Below, one piece after another: positions 25,697-34,356 of a stretch of DNA of 64,000 nucleotides. Within the stretch, counting starts at the first letter, position 1, and each line of letters opens with the position of its first letter. The stretch spans positions 2,046,001 to 2,110,000 of the forward strand of contig NZ_CP158281.1 in the NCBI RefSeq assembly GCF_040256645.1. The letters are read 5' to 3'. The stretch comes from Brevibacterium sp. CBA3109 (GTDB taxonomy: Bacteria > Actinomycetota > Actinomycetes > Actinomycetales > Brevibacteriaceae). Both the position numbers and the translations under genes were made by a program. The notes beneath the pieces were generated by a model. That model was not told the origin of the DNA. It ran no database searches and saw only the letters and a list, made by a program, of their open reading frames with translations.

Positions 25697-26770
25697 ATGC
25701 GTGAACTGATCTTGAACGGAGTCGACGCCGACGGCACTCATCTGCTGCTGAACGACGAAAACGGGCTGCAGTATCGATTGGCTCTCGACGAAGCTCTGTA
25801 CGCCGCTGTCCGCAAGGACCGCACCACAGTCAAGCCCGAGACCCCCGTACGCCCTCGCGACATCCAGGCGATGATCCGTGGCGGGATGAGTGCAGAGGAG
25901 GTCATCTCCTCCACGGGCGCCGATATCGAACAGGTCCGCACCTATGAGCGACCTGCTCTGGCCGAACGCGCACACACGGCGTACACAGCCAGTCAGCATC
26001 CGATCTATTCCGACCATGACCCCAATGGCGACCCGACTCCTCTGGTGGAACTGTGCCAGACTCGTCTGGCGATGCGCGACGTCGACATCGAAACGATGGA
26101 CTGGGATGCGTGGAAGCAGCAGGACGGCAACTGGTACATCCAGCTCAGCTTCACCGCCGCGGATCGGACTCGCACGGCTGGATGGAACTACTACCGCCGG
26201 TCGTTGACTCCCATCGACGACGAGGCGAAATGGCTAGCCGATTCGGGACCTACCGACACCGGACCCATCCCGAACTACGGAACCGGTGCGCAACGCCAGA
26301 AGAACACCGAGGAGATCGACGCCCCGACCGCGCCTCCAACTCAGACCGAAACGTCTCCCGCTGCCCGGGACCACCAGGCAGAGACCGGGCGGATCTTGGA
26401 GAATCTGCGCAAACGTCGTCGTCATGAAGACGACGACGAGCCCCGTGGCAGGCTCCGCGCTGTCACCGAGGACCCGGAGACTCACCCTCAGGGCGCCCAC
26501 ACCGCGCCAGGACGGCCCGAAGAGGCCACCGATGACGAGGTCTTCGCATTCGAGGACCCGGCATCTGTCGACCCGGAAGAACCTCAGGAGCCGACACAAG
26601 AGGTCGGCAGATTCGACGATGAGAATCAGCTGTCCCTGCTCAATGAACCTGGTGTCAGTGAAGAATCGAATCAGTTCAAGGACACGGAGTCGAAAGCGAA
26701 GTCGAAGAAGAACAGTCGCGCATCGATCCCCAGCTGGGACGAGATCATGTTCGGCTCGAAGCGCGACTGA
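25697..26770 (+). CDS. sepH: Septation protein SepH (FtsZ-associated, DUF3071)
   Basis: A 357-residue cell-division protein. The N-terminal DUF3071 domain (about residues 1-175) starts MRELILNGVDADGTHLLL and includes a helix-turn-helix-like part (PRDIQAMIRGGMSAEEVI). The rest is a long, charged, proline-rich linker with a short basic C-terminus ending WDEIMFGSKRD. In Streptomyces and Mycobacterium SepH binds FtsZ and stimulates its assembly; the FtsZ gene is at 54 kb here. Its last 26 bp overlap the converging cydDC gene. Confidence 0.93.
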   Translation: MRELILNGVDADGTHLLLNDENGLQYRLALDEALYAAVRKDRTTVKPETPVRPRDIQAMIRGGMSAEEVISSTGADIEQVRTYERPALAERAHTAYTASQHPIYSDHDPNGDPTPLVELCQTRLAMRDVDIETMDWDAWKQQDGNWYIQLSFTAADRTRTAGWNYYRRSLTPIDDEAKWLADSGPTDTGPIPNYGTGAQRQKNTEEIDAPTAPPTQTETSPAARDHQAETGRILENLRKRRRHEDDDEPRGRLRAVTEDPETHPQGAHTAPGRPEEATDDEVFAFEDPASVDPEEPQEPTQEVGRFDDENQLSLLNEPGVSEESNQFKDTESKAKSKKNSRASIPSWDEIMFGSKRD

Positions 26771-29700
26771 GTTCGCCACCCAACTCGACCAGTCGATCGT
26801 CGTCTGCGATCAGACTGCGATCATGAGTGACCATCACAACGGCGTGTGAGCCCAGGCTCTTCCGCAGATCATTCACCAACCGGTGTGCCATCTCATCGTC
26901 GAGGTGCGCCGTCGGTTCATCGAGCACGAGCACTTCAGCTCCGCTCAGCAGCGTCCTGGCCACGGCCAGACGCTGACGCTGCCCTCCGGAGACCTCTGCT
27001 CCGTGATCGCCGACCCAGAGGTCGAGGCCGGCTTGATCAGCCCATTCGCCCAAGCCCGCGCTGGTCAACGCCGCGCACATCTCCTCGCTGGTGGGCGCCT
27101 CTCTGCGCGCGATCGCCAGATTGCCCCTCACCGTCGACCGGAAGATATGTGCCTCCTGCGGGCACCAGGCGATTCTGCCGGCAAGGTCCGCTGGTGTCAG
27201 ACCGAGCACGTCCGTCTCGTGGCCTGCCTCGTCTTCGGCTCGGTAGGAGCCTGACCACGGGTCCAGGAAGCGCAGCAGCACGCTCAGCATCGTCGATTTT
27301 CCGGTGCCGCTGTCGCCATGCAGGACGGTCCATCGACCTCTCTGAGCTCGCAGATCCACATGCTCGACGACTGGACTGGCCTCCCACCCGACAGTGATGC
27401 CTTCGAGCTCGAGGCCAGTAAGCGCCGTCGCGTCGGGATGTTTGCCACTGTGATCGCCGGCCGGAGGACCCGACGGGGCGGGTGACAAAGCGGGGATGCG
27501 ATCGAGGACAGCACCGAGGGTCGGCAGCGCACGAAATGCAAGCAGAGACTGTGAGAAGACATCTGCAGAGCCCAGTGCGATGAGAACGACGACGGCCCGG
27601 ATCTCGGTCGGCGCCGACGATGTCATCGCAATGAGCATTGCAGCGCCCACCGTGCTCAGCTGCAGCCAGAGCTGCGCGAAGCCCAAGTGGTGTGAGGAGC
27701 GACGTTGAGCACGCTGCAGCTCCTGCTCTTCGCGACTGAGCACCGTGAGCACCGTGCCGTCTGCTCGATTCGCCCGCAGGTCTGTTTTGGCATTCAACGC
27801 GCGTGCCAGGACAGAGAGTATCCGGTTGCGGACAGTTCGGACGCGGCGGGCGAGGCCGCTTTCACTCCTGATCACTGCCGCTGGCAGCAGAACCAGGTTG
27901 AGAGCGCCGAGGCCCAGAAACACCGGCAGCGTCGTAGGATCGAGGGCCCAGGCGGCGATGAGCACGGCAAGGAAAACCAGGCATGAGGCGACAGGAGCGA
28001 ACAGAGTCCGCGGAATCAGATCCCGAACGTCATCAGCATCGGAGACCATGGTGCGCAGTGCGGCATCCGAGGTCAGCAGCTTCCGATCCCCCATACCGAC
28101 CGCTGCGAAGTGCTCCCAGAGACGAGAGCGCAGTCGGCCCAACGATGCGAAGATCGCCGAGTGCAGTTTGAGGCGACTGAGGTAGAGCAGCACTGATCGG
28201 CTCAGCCCGAAGAACCGCACACCGACGATGGCAACCATGAGAATCATGATGGGAGGCTGGTAGGAAGCTTCGACGATGAGCCACGCGGAGACTGCGGTCA
28301 GCGCGATCGCAGCCAGGCTGGAGGCGCAGGACGCGAGCAGAGCAATCATCATGTTCGGGGTCACAAGTGGCATGCTCGACCGCAGGAGCGACCATCGGCG
28401 ACGTAGCGTCGCGATCTGTACCTTTATTGACGAACTGTGGTCCTCGCTCACCATGTCCGCGCTCTGTGATCTGCCCGTCGGGACAAGGCCCGAGGGTACC
28501 GCCGGCACGGTGCCCACAGCGGGGTCGGCGTGTGTCGCTGGGTCGGCGTGTGTCGCTGGGTCGGCGAGCGTCGCTGCCGCAGCACGATTCCGCAGATCCG
28601 CGTCCGAAGCTGCGTCCTGGCCACGCTCCTGCACTGACGCTGCTGCGTGCGTGCTCACACTGGTCTTTCTGGGGACGATCTCGTCCTCAGCCAGTGCGAC
28701 TACCCGGTCATCATGGCTGGCTAGGACGACACGCACACGTGCTGCCGCCTCGACGATCATGTCGATGATGATCGCAGCGTTGTCATCATCGAGGTGAGCG
28801 GTCGGTTCGTCGAGGACGAGTGCCTCGGCCTCGCCCTCAACCAGGTGCACCACCCGGACGAATGCGAGTCGACGAAGCTGGCCGGGACTCAGCGCAGACG
28901 TCGACAGCATCGAGTCCTCGGGCAGACGGGCTCCGCGCAGAGCAGTCCCCTGCTGTGAGTGCGGGAGACCGTAGGCGTCGAGCTCAGCGCCGATCGTCGC
29001 ACCGAAGATACGTGGACTCTGAGGGACGAATGCGACCCGGTGCGGTGTCGTTGTGGTTGTGGCCCGGTCGGGCAGCTGCCCGGTCAGCGCTGCCAGAATC
29101 GTCGATTTTCCTGCGCCCGAGGCACCCCGAACTGCCGTGATGCCGGGAGCGGTCGGGAAGTCACCGTTCCACTCGATCGTCGTTCCGTTCGGGTAGATGA
29201 CGCGGTGCTGGGCGCCTGCGGCATCGTCACGAGCCGCATCGTCGCAGTCGAACCCTTTCCGTGACGCACTGTCTGTGCCTGCGATCAGCGCATGGGCACG
29301 ATCGCGTGCCTCACGACCGTTCTCGCTGGCATGGTAGCCAGCCCCGAGTTCACGCAGCGGAGTGAAGCACTCAGGAGCCAGAAGCAGGACGAAGAGCCCG
29401 GAACTCAAGTCCATGGTTCCGGAGACGAGTCGCAGCCCGATGACGACGGCGACCAGGGCCACGGAAATCGTGGCGATGAGTTCGAGGGCGAGGCTCGAGA
29501 GGAATGCGATGCGCAGCGTGGCGAGGTTGGCGCTGTGGTATTTCTCTCCCAAGGTGCGCAGGGCACGTGCGTGGTCTTTGGAACGCCCGAGCCCGATGAG
29601 CACGGGTAGTCCTTCTGCCAGCTCGGCGAGGTGATCGGACAGACGCTCGAGAGCTGTGGTGCTGGCGGCCGTTGAAGCCTCGGTGAATCGGCCGATGAGA

Positions 29701-30188
29701 ATCATGAAGACCGGCACCATCGGCAGGCACAGCGCGATGATGATCGCGGAGAGGACATCGGTGAAGAGGATTCGTATCAGCAGTGTCAGGGGAACCACCG
29801 CTGCGGCACTCAGCGCCGGCACCACGGTCGTGAAGTAGTCGTCGAGGTCGTCGATGCCGCGTGTGACGGTGACTGCGGTGTTCATTCGCGGCTGGCCGGG
29901 CCCGGTGAGCAGCGACCTCAGAATCGAAAACCTCAGCCGCTGTTTGTGCGCGGCGGCCAGGGATGTCCCCAGACTGTGGTCCGTCCAGAGGCTCGCCCCC
30001 CGCAGTGCCGCTCCCAGAAGCCCCAGCACCGCCCAGACCGCGACGGGGCTGGAGCCGACGATCAATCGCACCAGAGCCTCGGCGATGAGTACGATGCCGA
30101 CTGCGCGCGACAGAGCGCTGAACAGAGAGAGACAAAACCCGCGCTGGCCACCCGGCAGTTCGAGCAGAATCCGCAGCGGGGACTTCAT
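26745..30188 (-). CDS. cydDC: CydDC fusion: heterodimeric ABC exporter for cytochrome bd assembly
   Basis: A single 1147-residue chain combining CydD and CydC, exporting glutathione or cysteine (or binding haem) as needed to assemble cytochrome bd. Order: membrane domain 1; ABC domain 1 with GASGAGKST, a degenerate signature LSPGQ and VLDEPTAHLDDD; a low-complexity linker with repeated DPATHA; membrane domain 2; ABC domain 2 with GDSGTGKST, SGGQRQR and VLDEPTAHLDDE. The LSPGQ site makes one ATP site asymmetric, as in many exporters. ATG 30188 overlaps the cydB stop by 4 bp. The fusion is common in actinobacteria. The 3' end overlaps sepH. Confidence 0.95.
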   Translation of the reverse strand: MKSPLRILLELPGGQRGFCLSLFSALSRAVGIVLIAEALVRLIVGSSPVAVWAVLGLLGAALRGASLWTDHSLGTSLAAAHKQRLRFSILRSLLTGPGQPRMNTAVTVTRGIDDLDDYFTTVVPALSAAAVVPLTLLIRILFTDVLSAIIIALCLPMVPVFMILIGRFTEASTAASTTALERLSDHLAELAEGLPVLIGLGRSKDHARALRTLGEKYHSANLATLRIAFLSSLALELIATISVALVAVVIGLRLVSGTMDLSSGLFVLLLAPECFTPLRELGAGYHASENGREARDRAHALIAGTDSASRKGFDCDDAARDDAAGAQHRVIYPNGTTIEWNGDFPTAPGITAVRGASGAGKSTILAALTGQLPDRATTTTTPHRVAFVPQSPRIFGATIGAELDAYGLPHSQQGTALRGARLPEDSMLSTSALSPGQLRRLAFVRVVHLVEGEAEALVLDEPTAHLDDDNAAIIIDMIVEAAARVRVVLASHDDRVVALAEDEIVPRKTSVSTHAAASVQERGQDAASDADLRNRAAAATLADPATHADPATHADPAVGTVPAVPSGLVPTGRSQSADMVSEDHSSSIKVQIATLRRRWSLLRSSMPLVTPNMMIALLASCASSLAAIALTAVSAWLIVEASYQPPIMILMVAIVGVRFFGLSRSVLLYLSRLKLHSAIFASLGRLRSRLWEHFAAVGMGDRKLLTSDAALRTMVSDADDVRDLIPRTLFAPVASCLVFLAVLIAAWALDPTTLPVFLGLGALNLVLLPAAVIRSESGLARRVRTVRNRILSVLARALNAKTDLRANRADGTVLTVLSREEQELQRAQRRSSHHLGFAQLWLQLSTVGAAMLIAMTSSAPTEIRAVVVLIALGSADVFSQSLLAFRALPTLGAVLDRIPALSPAPSGPPAGDHSGKHPDATALTGLELEGITVGWEASPVVEHVDLRAQRGRWTVLHGDSGTGKSTMLSVLLRFLDPWSGSYRAEDEAGHETDVLGLTPADLAGRIAWCPQEAHIFRSTVRGNLAIARREAPTSEEMCAALTSAGLGEWADQAGLDLWVGDHGAEVSGGQRQRLAVARTLLSGAEVLVLDEPTAHLDDEMAHRLVNDLRKSLGSHAVVMVTHDRSLIADDDRLVELGGELSRASSRT
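28522..28575. repeat. 18-bp tandem repeat inside the cydDC linker
   Basis: Two exact copies of an 18-bp unit (GGGTCGGCGTGTGTCGCT) and a third, degenerate one. The length keeps the reading frame and encodes ADPATH-type hexapeptides in the linker joining the CydD and CydC halves. Repeat number is likely to vary between strains. Confidence 0.85.
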
Positions 30189-31207
30189 GATCTGATCGCC
30201 ACCGGCACACGGTGTGCCTCGGGGATGTGCGTCTCGGCAATCCTGCCCAGGAACATGCGATAGCTGAAAATCTGGTAGCCGATGATGATCGGCAGGCAGA
30301 TCGCGGTCACCACCAGCATCACGGTGAGGGTGTAATCCGACGAGGACGCCGAGGCGATGGTCAGCGAGTTCGCCGAGTCCAGAGTTGACGGCAGCACGTT
30401 GGGATAGGCTCCGGCGAACACAGCGAAGAGCCCGGACACCAGGTAGATCCCGTGCAGCACGAAGGCTGCCTTCTCCGCCCCGGAACGCACAGCAAAGTAC
30501 GCCGCCCCCAGAGCGATCACCGCTGCAACGACCACGGCGACAAGCCACGGGCGCTGGGCGATGGAGAGGCCGAACCAGACGAGGAAGCCGATCGAGGCGG
30601 GCAACAGCAGCCTCCGGGCCCAGCGCTGCGCCTTCTCTCGTATGTCACCCTGCGTCTTCAGACCCAGGAAGATGAGGCCGTGGACGAGGGCGAAGCCGAC
30701 CCCTCCCAGACCACCGAAGACTGCAGGCCACCCCATCCAGGCGAAGGCCCCACCCACGATGTCCCCGTTGCTATTCAGCGGCAGTCCGCTGGAGGTGATG
30801 GCGAGCATGGCACCGATGAAGAACGCGATTCCAGCCGATCCGGCTGCCATCGCCCAGGTCCAGAAGGACTTCCACGCCTGGCTGTGTCCCTTGCCGCGGT
30901 ATTCGATGGCGACGGCGCGGAAGATCAATGCCAGCAGACACAGTGTCAGCGGTATGTAGAGGGCGCTGAACAGGGAGGCATACCAGTGTGGGAAGGCGGC
31001 GAAGGTCGCCCCGGCCGCGGTGATCAGCCATACCTCGTTGCCGTCCCAGGTCGGCCCGATCGTGTTGAGCAGCACCCGCTTCTGCCGTTCGGTCCGGCTC
31101 AGCACCGGCATCAGCATTCCGACTCCGAGGTCGAAGCCGTCGAGGAACAGGTACCCCATCCACAGCACGATGATGAGGACGAACCAGATCGTGGCAAGAA
31201 TTTCCAT
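30185..31207 (-). CDS. cydB: Cytochrome bd ubiquinol/menaquinol oxidase subunit II
   Basis: A 340-residue integral membrane protein with about nine transmembrane helices that pairs with CydA. Family sequence is clear at the N-terminus (WMGYLFLDGFDLGVGML) and in GPTWDGNEVWLI and FRAVAIEYRGK. AGGAG precedes ATG 31207. It lies 12 bp after cydA and overlaps cydDC by 4 bp, so the order cydA-cydB-cydDC is one operon. Confidence 0.97.
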   Translation of the reverse strand: MEILATIWFVLIIVLWMGYLFLDGFDLGVGMLMPVLSRTERQKRVLLNTIGPTWDGNEVWLITAAGATFAAFPHWYASLFSALYIPLTLCLLALIFRAVAIEYRGKGHSQAWKSFWTWAMAAGSAGIAFFIGAMLAITSSGLPLNSNGDIVGGAFAWMGWPAVFGGLGGVGFALVHGLIFLGLKTQGDIREKAQRWARRLLLPASIGFLVWFGLSIAQRPWLVAVVVAAVIALGAAYFAVRSGAEKAAFVLHGIYLVSGLFAVFAGAYPNVLPSTLDSANSLTIASASSSDYTLTVMLVVTAICLPIIIGYQIFSYRMFLGRIAETHIPEAHRVPVAIRS

Positions 31208-31219
31208 CGTGTCTTCTCC

Positions 31220-32791
31220 TCAGTACGCGAACGACAGGACGTCGTCTTCGTCGTTCGTGATCCGCGGGGTGTGGTTGGTCTTCGTGACCTCGGGCATCGC
31301 CGAGGCGACTCCTCCCCTGATGTAGACGATGAGCAGCCGCAGTTCGACGACCATGAGAATGCCGTAGACGAGGCTGAGGCTGATCAGCGAGAACAGCAGC
31401 ATTGCTGGCGTGAGTTGGGGCGACAGTGCTGCCTGGGTGAACATGTACACACCGTCGAGTTGAGCAGGATTCGGCGCGACCACGAACGGCTGGCGCCCCA
31501 TCTCGGTGAAGATCCAGCCGGCGGAGTTCGCGATGAATGGTGCAGTCACGGACAGGAGCGCACCGCGCATCAGCCAGGGCGAGGCAGGAACGGTGCCCTT
31601 GCGGGTCAGCCACAGCCCCAGAGCGCTGACTCCGGCGGCGATCATGCCGAACCCGATCATCATCCTGAATCCCCAGTAGGTGACGATCATGATTGGCTGG
31701 TAGTCGATCTTCTCGCCGGAGTGCTGCCCGTAGCGTTCGTCCTCGGGCAGGTGGGTACCGTACTTATCCTGATAGTCAGGAAGCAGTGTCGTCACTCCGT
31801 GGACCGGAGTGTTGAAGTCGCCCTTGGCGAGGAAGGACAGCAGGCCGGGGATCTCGAACACGTTCTCAACTCCATCGCAGTCGTTGGAGGAGGGATCTCC
31901 GATCGTGAGCACCGAGAACTCTGTCCCATCGTGGCAAGCAGCCTCGGCTGAGGCCATCTTCATGGGCTGCTGTTCGAACATGAGCTTCGACTGGATGTCG
32001 CCGGTGATCGCCAGTCCGAGGAATGCGACGATGCCGACTACCGCACCGATGCGCAGGGACCGGATCCACACCTGGTGGTCAATGGCATCTCTTCCGGGCA
32101 CATCGGGGGCGGAGCCGACGAGGACCTTCCCGTCGGGCCCGATCGCGTCAATGCCGTCCTTGCGTCGGCGATACAGGTGATACCAGGAAATTCCGAGCAG
32201 GAAGCTGCCGCCGACCGCGAGTGCACCGCACAGCGTGTGAGTGTAGGCAGCAATCGCCGTGTTGTTCGTCATCACCGCCCAGACGTCGGTCATCACTGCT
32301 TGGCCGTCAACCAATTCGACCCCGACCGGGTGCTGCATCCAGGAGTTCGCAACGATGATGAAGTAGGCGGAGATCCATGATCCGATCACGGCGCACCAGA
32401 GGCTGCCCAAGTGAACCGCACGCGGGAGCCTGCCCCAGCCGAAGATCCAGAGTCCGAGGAATGTGGACTCCAGGAAGAACGCGAGCAGCGCCTCCAGCGC
32501 CAGCGGCGCACCGAATACGTCCCCCACGAACCGAGAGTATTCGCTCCAGGCCATACCGAATTGAAACTCTTGGACCAGACCCGTCGCCACGCCCATGATG
32601 AAGTTGATGAGGAAGAGCTTCCCGAAGAACTTGGTGCTGCGCAGGTACATCTCGTTGCCCGTGCGGTGGTACATGGTCTGCAGTATCGCGACCAGCATGC
32701 CGAGACCGAGGGTGAGCGGGACCATCCAGAAGTGATAGACGGTGGTGATGCCGAATTGCCAGCGCCCGATGAGAACCGGATCCAGGTCCAT
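31220..32791 (-). CDS. cydA: Cytochrome bd oxidase subunit I
   Basis: The haem-bearing subunit of the high-affinity terminal oxidase that reduces oxygen with quinol. The 523-residue protein starts MDLDPVLIGRWQFGITTVYH, where H20 corresponds to the haem b595 ligand; GRQPFVV marks the haem b558/Q-loop end. Nine transmembrane helices are expected. The Q-loop appears to be the short type usual outside the proteobacteria. It is the first gene of the operon, and two BlaI-like operators lie 28-61 bp upstream of its start. Confidence 0.97.
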   Translation of the reverse strand: MDLDPVLIGRWQFGITTVYHFWMVPLTLGLGMLVAILQTMYHRTGNEMYLRSTKFFGKLFLINFIMGVATGLVQEFQFGMAWSEYSRFVGDVFGAPLALEALLAFFLESTFLGLWIFGWGRLPRAVHLGSLWCAVIGSWISAYFIIVANSWMQHPVGVELVDGQAVMTDVWAVMTNNTAIAAYTHTLCGALAVGGSFLLGISWYHLYRRRKDGIDAIGPDGKVLVGSAPDVPGRDAIDHQVWIRSLRIGAVVGIVAFLGLAITGDIQSKLMFEQQPMKMASAEAACHDGTEFSVLTIGDPSSNDCDGVENVFEIPGLLSFLAKGDFNTPVHGVTTLLPDYQDKYGTHLPEDERYGQHSGEKIDYQPIMIVTYWGFRMMIGFGMIAAGVSALGLWLTRKGTVPASPWLMRGALLSVTAPFIANSAGWIFTEMGRQPFVVAPNPAQLDGVYMFTQAALSPQLTPAMLLFSLISLSLVYGILMVVELRLLIVYIRGGVASAMPEVTKTNHTPRITNDEDDVLSFAY

Positions 32792-32818: not shown

Positions 32819-32852
32819 TTCTACAACGCGTAGAATTCTACATCGCGTAGAA
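32819..32852. promoter_or_regulatory. Two abutting 17-bp inverted repeats upstream of cydA
   Basis: TTCTACAACGCGTAGAA (32819-32835) is immediately followed by TTCTACATCGCGTAGAA (32836-32852). Each has perfect 6-bp arms TTCTAC/GTAGAA around five bases. The pair lies 28 bp upstream of the cydA start and shares the TAC...GTA core of known BlaI/MecI operators. A blaI-family gene is divergently encoded 230 bp away. Repression of cydA by that protein is inferred. Confidence 0.75.
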
Positions 32853-33081
32853 ACATTTGCGGCAATATTCTGCCGGCTGAGATCTGCCGTCCCAGATTCC
32901 GCGTCAGTGCCCGCTAGCGTTCACTCCACTTCCACGTGGCGTGCACATCCCCGGTGTGACCAAAAGGTGCTACACCAGCGGCCACGAAGCGGATCACGGG
33001 CGGTTTCACATGGAATTCGACAGCCAGTAGAGATAGACTGAACTGGCAAGAAGAGCCATCTCTTCGAAGGACAAGGACACC
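32853..33081. other. Divergent promoter region between cydA and the blaI-like gene
   Basis: A 229-bp gap without a reading frame. The tandem operators are at its cydA end. At the blaI end I see no exact TTCTAC/GTAGAA pair, so autoregulation is not evident from the sequence. Confidence 0.45.
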
Positions 33082-33444
33082 GTGGGAACACTGGGCGAAC
33101 TCGAACGCAGCGTCATGGACGCCATCTGGGTACATGATGATGGATTGAGCGCGGCCGAACTCCGCGATGTGCTGGCAGCACGCGACCTCGCACTGACCAC
33201 CGTCCACACCGTCCTCACCCGGCTGGAGAAGAAGGGCTTCGTCACTCGCGACCGCAGCATCCGCCCACATCGCTACCTCGCGGTTTCGACGCGCGAAGAC
33301 CATGTCGCAGAGCTGATGACCGAAGTCCTGTCACAGGCTCCGGATCGCCAGGCCGTTCTTGCCCGATTCCTCGGCACCGTGTCGGAGGCCGATACGAAGG
33401 CTCTGCGCAATTTGCTGGGACGCAATCACTCGACCAACTCCTGA
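33082..33444 (+). CDS. BlaI/MecI/CopY family transcriptional repressor
   Basis: A 120-residue winged-helix protein. The N-terminal half carries the family pattern LGELERSVMDAIW, AAELRDVL, TTVHTVLTRLEKKGFV and the wing VTRDRSIRPHRYLA; the C-terminal half is the short dimerisation helix pair. It starts with GTG 33082 behind AAGGACAAGGA. An M56 peptidase follows by 18 bp, the classic BlaI-BlaR pairing in which the peptidase relieves repression. The nearest matching operators are upstream of cydA, not of a beta-lactamase. Confidence 0.93.
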   Translation: MGTLGELERSVMDAIWVHDDGLSAAELRDVLAARDLALTTVHTVLTRLEKKGFVTRDRSIRPHRYLAVSTREDHVAELMTEVLSQAPDRQAVLARFLGTVSEADTKALRNLLGRNHSTNS

Positions 33445-33462: not shown

Positions 33463-34356
33463 ATGAGCATCGTGGGATCCGTCCTCGCGGTACTTGCATT
33501 TCTCTTAGCGTGGCCGGTTCCGGCCGCGCTCTCCCGTTTTCGGGGAGACCCTATTTCGAAGGTCATCTTGTGGCAGGCCGTCGGCCTTTCCGGTGGCCTC
33601 TCACTCATCGGAACAGCGCTGGCTTTCGCTGTTGCCCCCGCCTCGCGCAGCCTGCCTGAGGGGCTTTGGCAGCTTGCCAGAGGACAGTCGCACGCTCATC
33701 TCACTGTCTTCGCCTGGATTTTCCTCATCATCGCGGTGGCACTCATCGGACGACTGTTGGGATGCCTCGCCCTGACGTTCTACTCCGCGCGCAAGACTCG
33801 AATTCGCCATGATGAGATCCTGCATCTGCTCAGCGAACCGTCCGCGACGTACTCGGATACGCGGATCATCACGACCGATGAGGCTGTCGCCTATTGCCTG
33901 CCCCAGGGTCCGCGCAAAGGCACTACGGTGCTCTCAACCGGGTTGCTCGAAGTCCTCAGCGAGGACGAGCGCACGGCCGTCATCGCCCATGAGAGAGCTC
34001 ATCTGGACTTCCGCCACGACGTGCTCGTGATTCCCTTCGCCGCGTGGCACCGTGCTTTGCCGTTCTTCTCGGCCACCGCGATCGGCCTCAACTCCGTCAA
34101 TGGCCTGATTGAACTCATGGCCGATGACCAAGCGCGCGAAGATGTCGATCCGGCGATTCTGTCGCTGGCAGTGCGTGAAGCGGCACGCATCAGCCCCGAA
34201 CATCGCAGCGATCTCTCGGACCAGCGGATCGACCGTCTCTCACGGCCCCTGGACCCTGCGCGGGTGCCGGTGCGCGTGACGTCGACCCTCGTAGCATTGG
34301 GCTTGCTGCTCGCCCCCAGCCTGTTGCTCTTCGTCCCCATCGCTCCCGGATTCTGA
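33463..34356 (+). CDS. M56 family membrane metallopeptidase (BlaR/MecR-like protease part)
   Basis: A 297-residue integral membrane zinc peptidase. There are three to four transmembrane segments (near residues 5-25, 40-60, 80-105 and the C-terminal 275-297) and a cytoplasmic catalytic site HERAH (in VIAHERAHLDFRHD), with a downstream glutamate candidate in NGLIELMADDQA. Unlike BlaR1 it has no penicillin-binding sensor domain, so the signal is unknown. It forms an operon with the repressor gene. Confidence 0.9.
   Translation: MSIVGSVLAVLAFLLAWPVPAALSRFRGDPISKVILWQAVGLSGGLSLIGTALAFAVAPASRSLPEGLWQLARGQSHAHLTVFAWIFLIIAVALIGRLLGCLALTFYSARKTRIRHDEILHLLSEPSATYSDTRIITTDEAVAYCLPQGPRKGTTVLSTGLLEVLSEDERTAVIAHERAHLDFRHDVLVIPFAAWHRALPFFSATAIGLNSVNGLIELMADDQAREDVDPAILSLAVREAARISPEHRSDLSDQRIDRLSRPLDPARVPVRVTSTLVALGLLLAPSLLLFVPIAPGF

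Follow-up and report, generated by a model that had tools for sequence, protein, structure and literature searches.

A BlaI-type repressor and a sensor-less BlaR1-like protease appear to control genes of oxygen-using respiration in Brevibacterium and other actinobacteria

In Brevibacterium, and in other soil and cheese actinobacteria, a BlaI-type repressor and a BlaR1-like protease that has no sensor domain appear to control genes of oxygen-using respiration. BlaI and BlaR1 are known as an inducible beta-lactam-resistance switch; the parts of that switch, minus the drug sensor, appear here to govern aerobic respiration in the Micrococcales and the Geodermatophilales. We put at roughly 75% the probability that this BlaI represses a dispersed respiratory regulon, and that the linked protease, most likely, inactivates BlaI when oxidase capacity is short. 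The operators, their conservation, the membership of the regulon and the co-occurrence of operators with blaI are read directly from the DNA.

The cydA-blaI locus and its operators

The locus lies within a stretch of 64,000 nucleotides, which we call the window. The genome falls into one species with the genome that contains the B. antiquum CNRZ 918 contig. It has one copy of cytochrome bd, whose genes are arranged in the order cydA (subunit I; 31220..32791, minus strand; PF01654, E 1e-148), cydB (subunit II; 30185..31207, minus strand; PF02322 and TIGR00203) and a fused cydDC (26745..30187, minus strand). The last encodes an ABC exporter with the CydD half followed by the CydC half (matches above cut-off to both TIGR02857 and TIGR02868; the start codon was assigned by eye), so that one reading frame holds both cydD and cydC. 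Divergent from cydA are the genes of a 120-aa BlaI-type repressor (33082..33444, plus strand) and of a 297-aa BlaR1-like membrane metalloprotease (33463..34356, plus strand; PF01435/PF05569). The divergent blaI-type gene had been named in a preliminary description of this DNA, and the assignment holds: residues 4-112 of the product match PF03965 (Penicillinase_R) with an E-value of 1.7e-23 and 83.6 bits, against a cut-off of 22.6. The closest solved structure to the repressor is that of Mycobacterium tuberculosis BlaI (2g9w; E 4e-18). Residue F96 of the window repressor is invariant in 8 orthologues. Its alignment with MecI spans the N-terminal domain only; partner proteases of the BlaI/MecI family cut the repressor within its C-terminal dimerisation domain.

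Upstream of cydA, two perfect 17-bp dyads with the consensus TTCTAC-N5-GTAGAA stand end to end at 32819-32852. Dyad 1 is TTCTACAACGCGTAGAA (32819..32835) and dyad 2, which abuts it, is TTCTACATCGCGTAGAA (32836..32852); both are exact matches, neither is assigned a strand, and the junction between them, GTAGAATTCTAC, is palindromic in its own right. Between the tandem dyad and the cydA start codon, whose first base is 32791 on the minus strand, are 27 bp. Within the window the exact 17-mer is found twice and the 34-bp composite a single time, and neither appears in 100 dinucleotide shuffles. The two exactly abutting repeats of the preliminary report are confirmed. The whole genome (3.67 Mb) contains 8 exact dyads and no match to a reversed control pattern. 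A chance palindrome was considered and ruled out, based on the shuffles and on the 195 exact dyads vs. 3 reversed controls found in 41 Brevibacterium genomes (summed from a per-genome table).

The same description placed the two dyads on one face of the helix, which does not survive measurement: their centers are 17 bp apart, or approximately 1.6 helical turns, and so the window dyads do not share a face. The spacing between neighboring dyad centers is likewise 17 bp for 26 of the core loci in Brevibacterium, and is mostly 21-26 bp in other lineages, to which a same-face arrangement would be better suited than to the window. A sigma-70 consensus scan of the locus found no promoter match. Toward cydA, a possible promoter runs across the dyads with the arrangement TTGCCG-N19-TAGAAT; this arrangement is not conserved.

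A third dyad, overlooked in the preliminary description, is the variant TTCGAC-N5-GTAGAG (33016..33032, no strand assigned), which differs from the consensus at two positions. It sits between a candidate -35 hexamer for blaI, TGGAAT (33011-33016), and a candidate -10 hexamer, TAGACT (33034-33039); the hexamers are 17 bp apart and were read by eye, the consensus scan having given no match. The variant is kept in all 28 core Brevibacterium loci, 63-84 bp ahead of blaI. Because it lies between the candidate promoter hexamers, it is a probable autoregulatory operator, through which blaI probably controls its own expression.

Conservation of the operators

Scanning a BlaI alignment against 84,980 species genomes gives 80 loci, which span the Brevibacteriaceae, Micrococcaceae, Microbacteriaceae and Geodermatophilaceae; the genera are Brevibacterium, Sediminivirga, Sinomonas, Arthrobacter, Psychromicrobium, Renibacterium, Acaricomes, Nesterenkonia, Agromyces, Okibacterium, Schumannella, Planctomonas, Klenkia, Blastococcus and Geodermatophilus. 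The M56 gene adjoins blaI in 80 of 80 loci, and cydA is divergent in 78, the exceptions being one locus at a contig end and one in Nesterenkonia. In Nesterenkonia haasae (L166:6976), blaI-M56 is found apart from cydA, with a second dyad close to a SURF1-like reading frame.

The preliminary description had proposed to judge its reading by whether the motif is conserved ahead of cydA in relatives that keep blaI. This is what we find, with an exact dyad at 76 of the 80 loci and dyads with a 6-bp spacer at two more. Among the dyads at these loci the spacer measures 5 bp in 154 and 6 bp in 6, and spacers of 3, 4, 7 or 8 bp do not occur. In 28 close Brevibacterium loci, from as many species, the information content is 1.98 bits per column over the operator arms, vs. 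0.87 for the spacers and 0.70 for the flanks, and 22 of the 24 arm columns of the tandem are invariant, with spacers and flanks variable. Conservation so concentrated in the arms matches a protein footprint, and does not match general sequence conservation.

Two sets of loci depart from this pattern. The first comprises Planctomonas deserti and one uncultured Microbacteriaceae (L169:3600-4000 and L171:3600-4000), where all three cydA-blaI operators have the 6-bp spacer, and no further 6-bp-spacer sites were found elsewhere in these two genomes; we read this as a naturally occurring change in operator geometry. The second comprises B. luteolum and B. gallinarum (L126, L128), which keep blaI-M56-cydA; in these species the exact dyad is absent both at the locus and in the genomes searched, where a degenerate ATCTAC-N6-GTAGAG at the locus is all that remains.

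Co-occurrence of the dyad with blaI

Within Brevibacterium, dyads are absent from the genome that has no blaI match (G009) and from the two that have distant paralogues only (G004 and G026). Many Brevibacterium genomes that lack the second BlaI-M56 pair of the window genome still carry 4-8 dyads, and those in which this second pair is the only one carry none; dyad presence does not track the second pair, which was ruled out as the binder. This second BlaI and M48/M56 protease pair (L093:1627-2999; G000 2909126-2910498) is located near thiol-disulphide genes (DsbA-like, by eye).

Outside the genus, dyad counts were set against a BlaI search in 60 hand-chosen genomes, with blaI scored as present at E 1e-28 or better. 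Four large genomes of family f15 with intermediate BlaI matches were left out, so that 56 were compared. The dyad occurs in 31 of the 32 genomes with a blaI orthologue and in 1 of the 24 without (Fisher p 2e-13, which is indicative only, since the genomes are hand-chosen and related). The single genome with the dyad and without this blaI is G226. Within one genus, the dyad is found in 3 of 3 genomes with blaI and in 0 of 9 without.

These comparisons bear on the alternative that another regulator binds the dyads, and that the blaI-M56 pair is merely its neighbor or target. Two species keep blaI with degenerate sites, which would leave room for such a regulator. We nevertheless consider it quite unlikely, because dyad presence tracks this blaI in the within-genus comparison, sites occur at the putative blaI promoter, and in one lineage all of the operators at the locus shifted spacer length together.

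A dispersed set of respiratory targets

The 8 exact dyads of this genome comprise the two at cydA and single sites upstream of the flavohaemoglobin gene hmp, a Caa3_CtaG gene, an operon that encodes a PCuAC copper chaperone and a Dyp peroxidase, each of two universal-stress genes, and a gene for a membrane protein without a Pfam match. The hmp site is paired with a one-mismatch dyad. Directly upstream of hmp (L014:3592-6360) is a gene for a protein of 922 aa that has a membrane part at its N terminus, a cupredoxin and multicopper-oxidase domains (nitrite-reductase-like), and the tandem dyad falls between this gene and hmp. Other one-mismatch dyads are found at ccsB in the resB-ccsB cluster, an ABC gene upstream of ctaA, ctaB/tkt and the gene for a protein with a DnaJ-homologue domain (DJC28); three more fall inside coding sequence and are probably due to chance. 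The sites do not extend to every respiratory gene: in this genome hemQ has no upstream site, and ctaC has no exact site, only one with two mismatches.

A further 60 dyads from 11 other genomes were picked regardless of function, with several of the gene assignments made by eye from similarity to a Pfam-tested member. For about 30 of the 60, the gene that follows has to do with respiration, haem, copper, NO or the molybdenum cofactor (hmp, hemQ, ctaA, ctaB, ctaC, SURF1, CtaG, CopC, PCuAC, TlpA/ccs, sdhC, and MobA-like with an MFS transporter). The others are found at universal-stress genes (7), pyridoxamine-oxidase-like genes (5), blaI (1), recurring small membrane proteins (12) and elsewhere (5). 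In several genomes of Brevibacterium a dyad stands approximately 9 bp ahead of the start of a conserved membrane protein of ∼165 aa without a Pfam match (L011:3248-3739, L212, L216 and L232), for which a respiratory role is possible. The switch for the respiratory oxidase that had been proposed from the window is upheld with respect to the conserved cydA operator, but was drawn too narrowly, as the sites at hmp, CtaG, PCuAC and the universal-stress genes indicate a regulon that extends beyond cytochrome bd.

Several targets handle copper (PCuAC, CopC, CtaG and ctaC), and the repressor has a weak match to the NCBIfam model CopY_TcrY, as might be expected if it were a CopY-like regulator that itself senses copper and whose regulon tracks copper supply. 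The match is only 37 bits against a cut-off of 122, however, which places the repressor outside the CopY/TcrY family; the repressor contains no cysteines, and the cyd, hmp and universal-stress targets are not copper proteins. We consider direct copper sensing improbable, although a copper shortage that acts through oxidase failure could be compatible with respiratory control.

The BlaR1-like protease

The protease carries the zinc motifs HExxH (residues 176-180, HERAH) and ExxxD (217-221), and H176, E177, H180, E217 and D221 are invariant across 28 homologues, in agreement with the zinc site of BlaR1 and MecR1 (BlaR1 motifs taken from PMC9834060). Its AlphaFold model (mean pLDDT 92) has the four-helix membrane part and cytoplasmic gluzincin domain expected of such a protein, and aligns with residues 1-291 of S. 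aureus BlaR1 over 196-212 residues (Z 9.5-11.0). ZMPSTE24 and Ste24p give similar Z scores to BlaR1, mostly across the protease part alone, and Foldseek E-values are weak (best 1e-3), so that the likeness to BlaR1 depends on a second structural aligner. The chain ends after its last helix (H267-290), at the point where the BlaR1 sensor would start, and a Pfam search of the 297 residues found no transpeptidase or beta-lactamase domain. For lack of a sensor domain we call the protein BlaR1-like, not BlaR1; in its predicted structure it corresponds to BlaR1 minus the sensor. It had been described initially as an M56 peptidase without a beta-lactam sensor, and the missing sensor is confirmed by the search and the model. 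The Pfam profile score is better for M48 (1.9e-9) than for M56 (6e-6, which is below the cut-off, 26 vs. 31), but the predicted structure aligns with BlaR1.

Both proteins nonetheless belong to the BlaI/BlaR1 families, and two papers link M. tuberculosis BlaI to the beta-lactam response as well as to the ATP synthase operon (PMC12565901, PMC8265638). The locus might accordingly be read as an ordinary BlaI/BlaR1 response to beta-lactams or cell-wall damage, with cydA as a side target. We consider this very improbable, given a protease without a sensor domain and, among the genes flanking the inspected dyads, no beta-lactamase or PBP gene; the original suggestion that the system serves something other than beta-lactam resistance is in line with both observations.

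Proposed mechanism

In the respiratory switch that we favor, BlaI dimers would occupy the tandem dyad and block transcription of cydABDC, while dimers on the variant dyad would control the expression of blaI and of the M56 gene. This BlaI would also govern haem a synthesis, the assembly of cytochrome oxidase and cytochrome c, and copper delivery, and in addition cytochrome bd, flavohaemoglobin and the universal stress proteins. A shortfall in terminal-oxidase function would lead the sensor-less protease to remove BlaI, resulting in derepression; BlaR1 has been shown to cleave BlaI directly (PMC9834060). The steps that we infer are direct contact of BlaI with the DNA, a repressing effect, cleavage and the nature of the signal. 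The M56 protease probably lifts repression once terminal-oxidase function, or oxygen, is insufficient, and candidate triggers would be low oxygen, failure of the aa3 branch, limitation for copper or haem, and NO. This choice follows from the content of the regulon, namely an alternative oxidase, haem a and copper assembly, cytochrome c maturation, NO detoxification and stress proteins.

More tentatively, and at slightly worse than even odds, a BlaR1-type protease may serve as a sensor of the respiratory chain (of quinol, oxygen, haem or electron flow), destroying BlaI and thereby setting the entire terminal-oxidase program in several actinobacterial families. For groups that include Arthrobacter and Brevibacterium, the pair offers a candidate sensor of respiration, and it can serve as a test case for the signal that a sensor-less BlaR1 protease reads.

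Comparison with known systems

In the open-access literature we found no description of this regulon or of BlaI control of cydA, cytochrome bd or terminal oxidases, and the respiration switch suggested here would, to the extent of that search, be a new one. The system shares with BlaI/BlaR1 and MecI/MecR1 of S. aureus the winged-helix repressor family, a linked membrane zinc protease with HExxH...ExxxD, and dyad operators, and differs from them in its targets and in the absence of a beta-lactam sensor from the Brevibacterium protease. The operators also differ, as the dyads here contain TAC-N5-GTA, whereas those of staphylococcal BlaI/MecI are TAC-N4-GTA (TACA-N2-TGTA). Bacillus subtilis ResDE and mycobacterial DosR have overlapping classes of targets (ctaA, cytochrome c biogenesis and hmp, with universal stress proteins for DosR), but are two-component systems with no homology to the BlaI-protease pair.

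Similar in physiological logic is the sigma-C regulon of Corynebacterium glutamicum, in which cydABDC is also a target. Sigma-C activates cydABDC, and is proposed to respond when the aa3 branch fails, as it does when copper is withheld or the insertion of haem a is disturbed (PMC7337898). The parts are unrelated, however, since sigma-C is an ECF sigma factor and an activator, rather than a repressor with a protease.

M. tuberculosis BlaI (Rv1846c) provides the closest solved structure to our repressor, and the BlaR1 homologue of that organism is likewise described as having no sensor domain (PMC9834060). The two repressors are distant in sequence, and the targets that we found named are beta-lactamase, Rv1303-atp and ftsQ, with cydA not found among them. 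Through repression of Rv1303-atp, M. tuberculosis BlaI reaches bioenergetics (PMC12565901), and the respiratory regulon described here may give a context for why it controls ATP synthase. Its repression of the ATP-synthase operon is a real precedent for bioenergetic control by a BlaI, and the closest that we found (PMC12565901).
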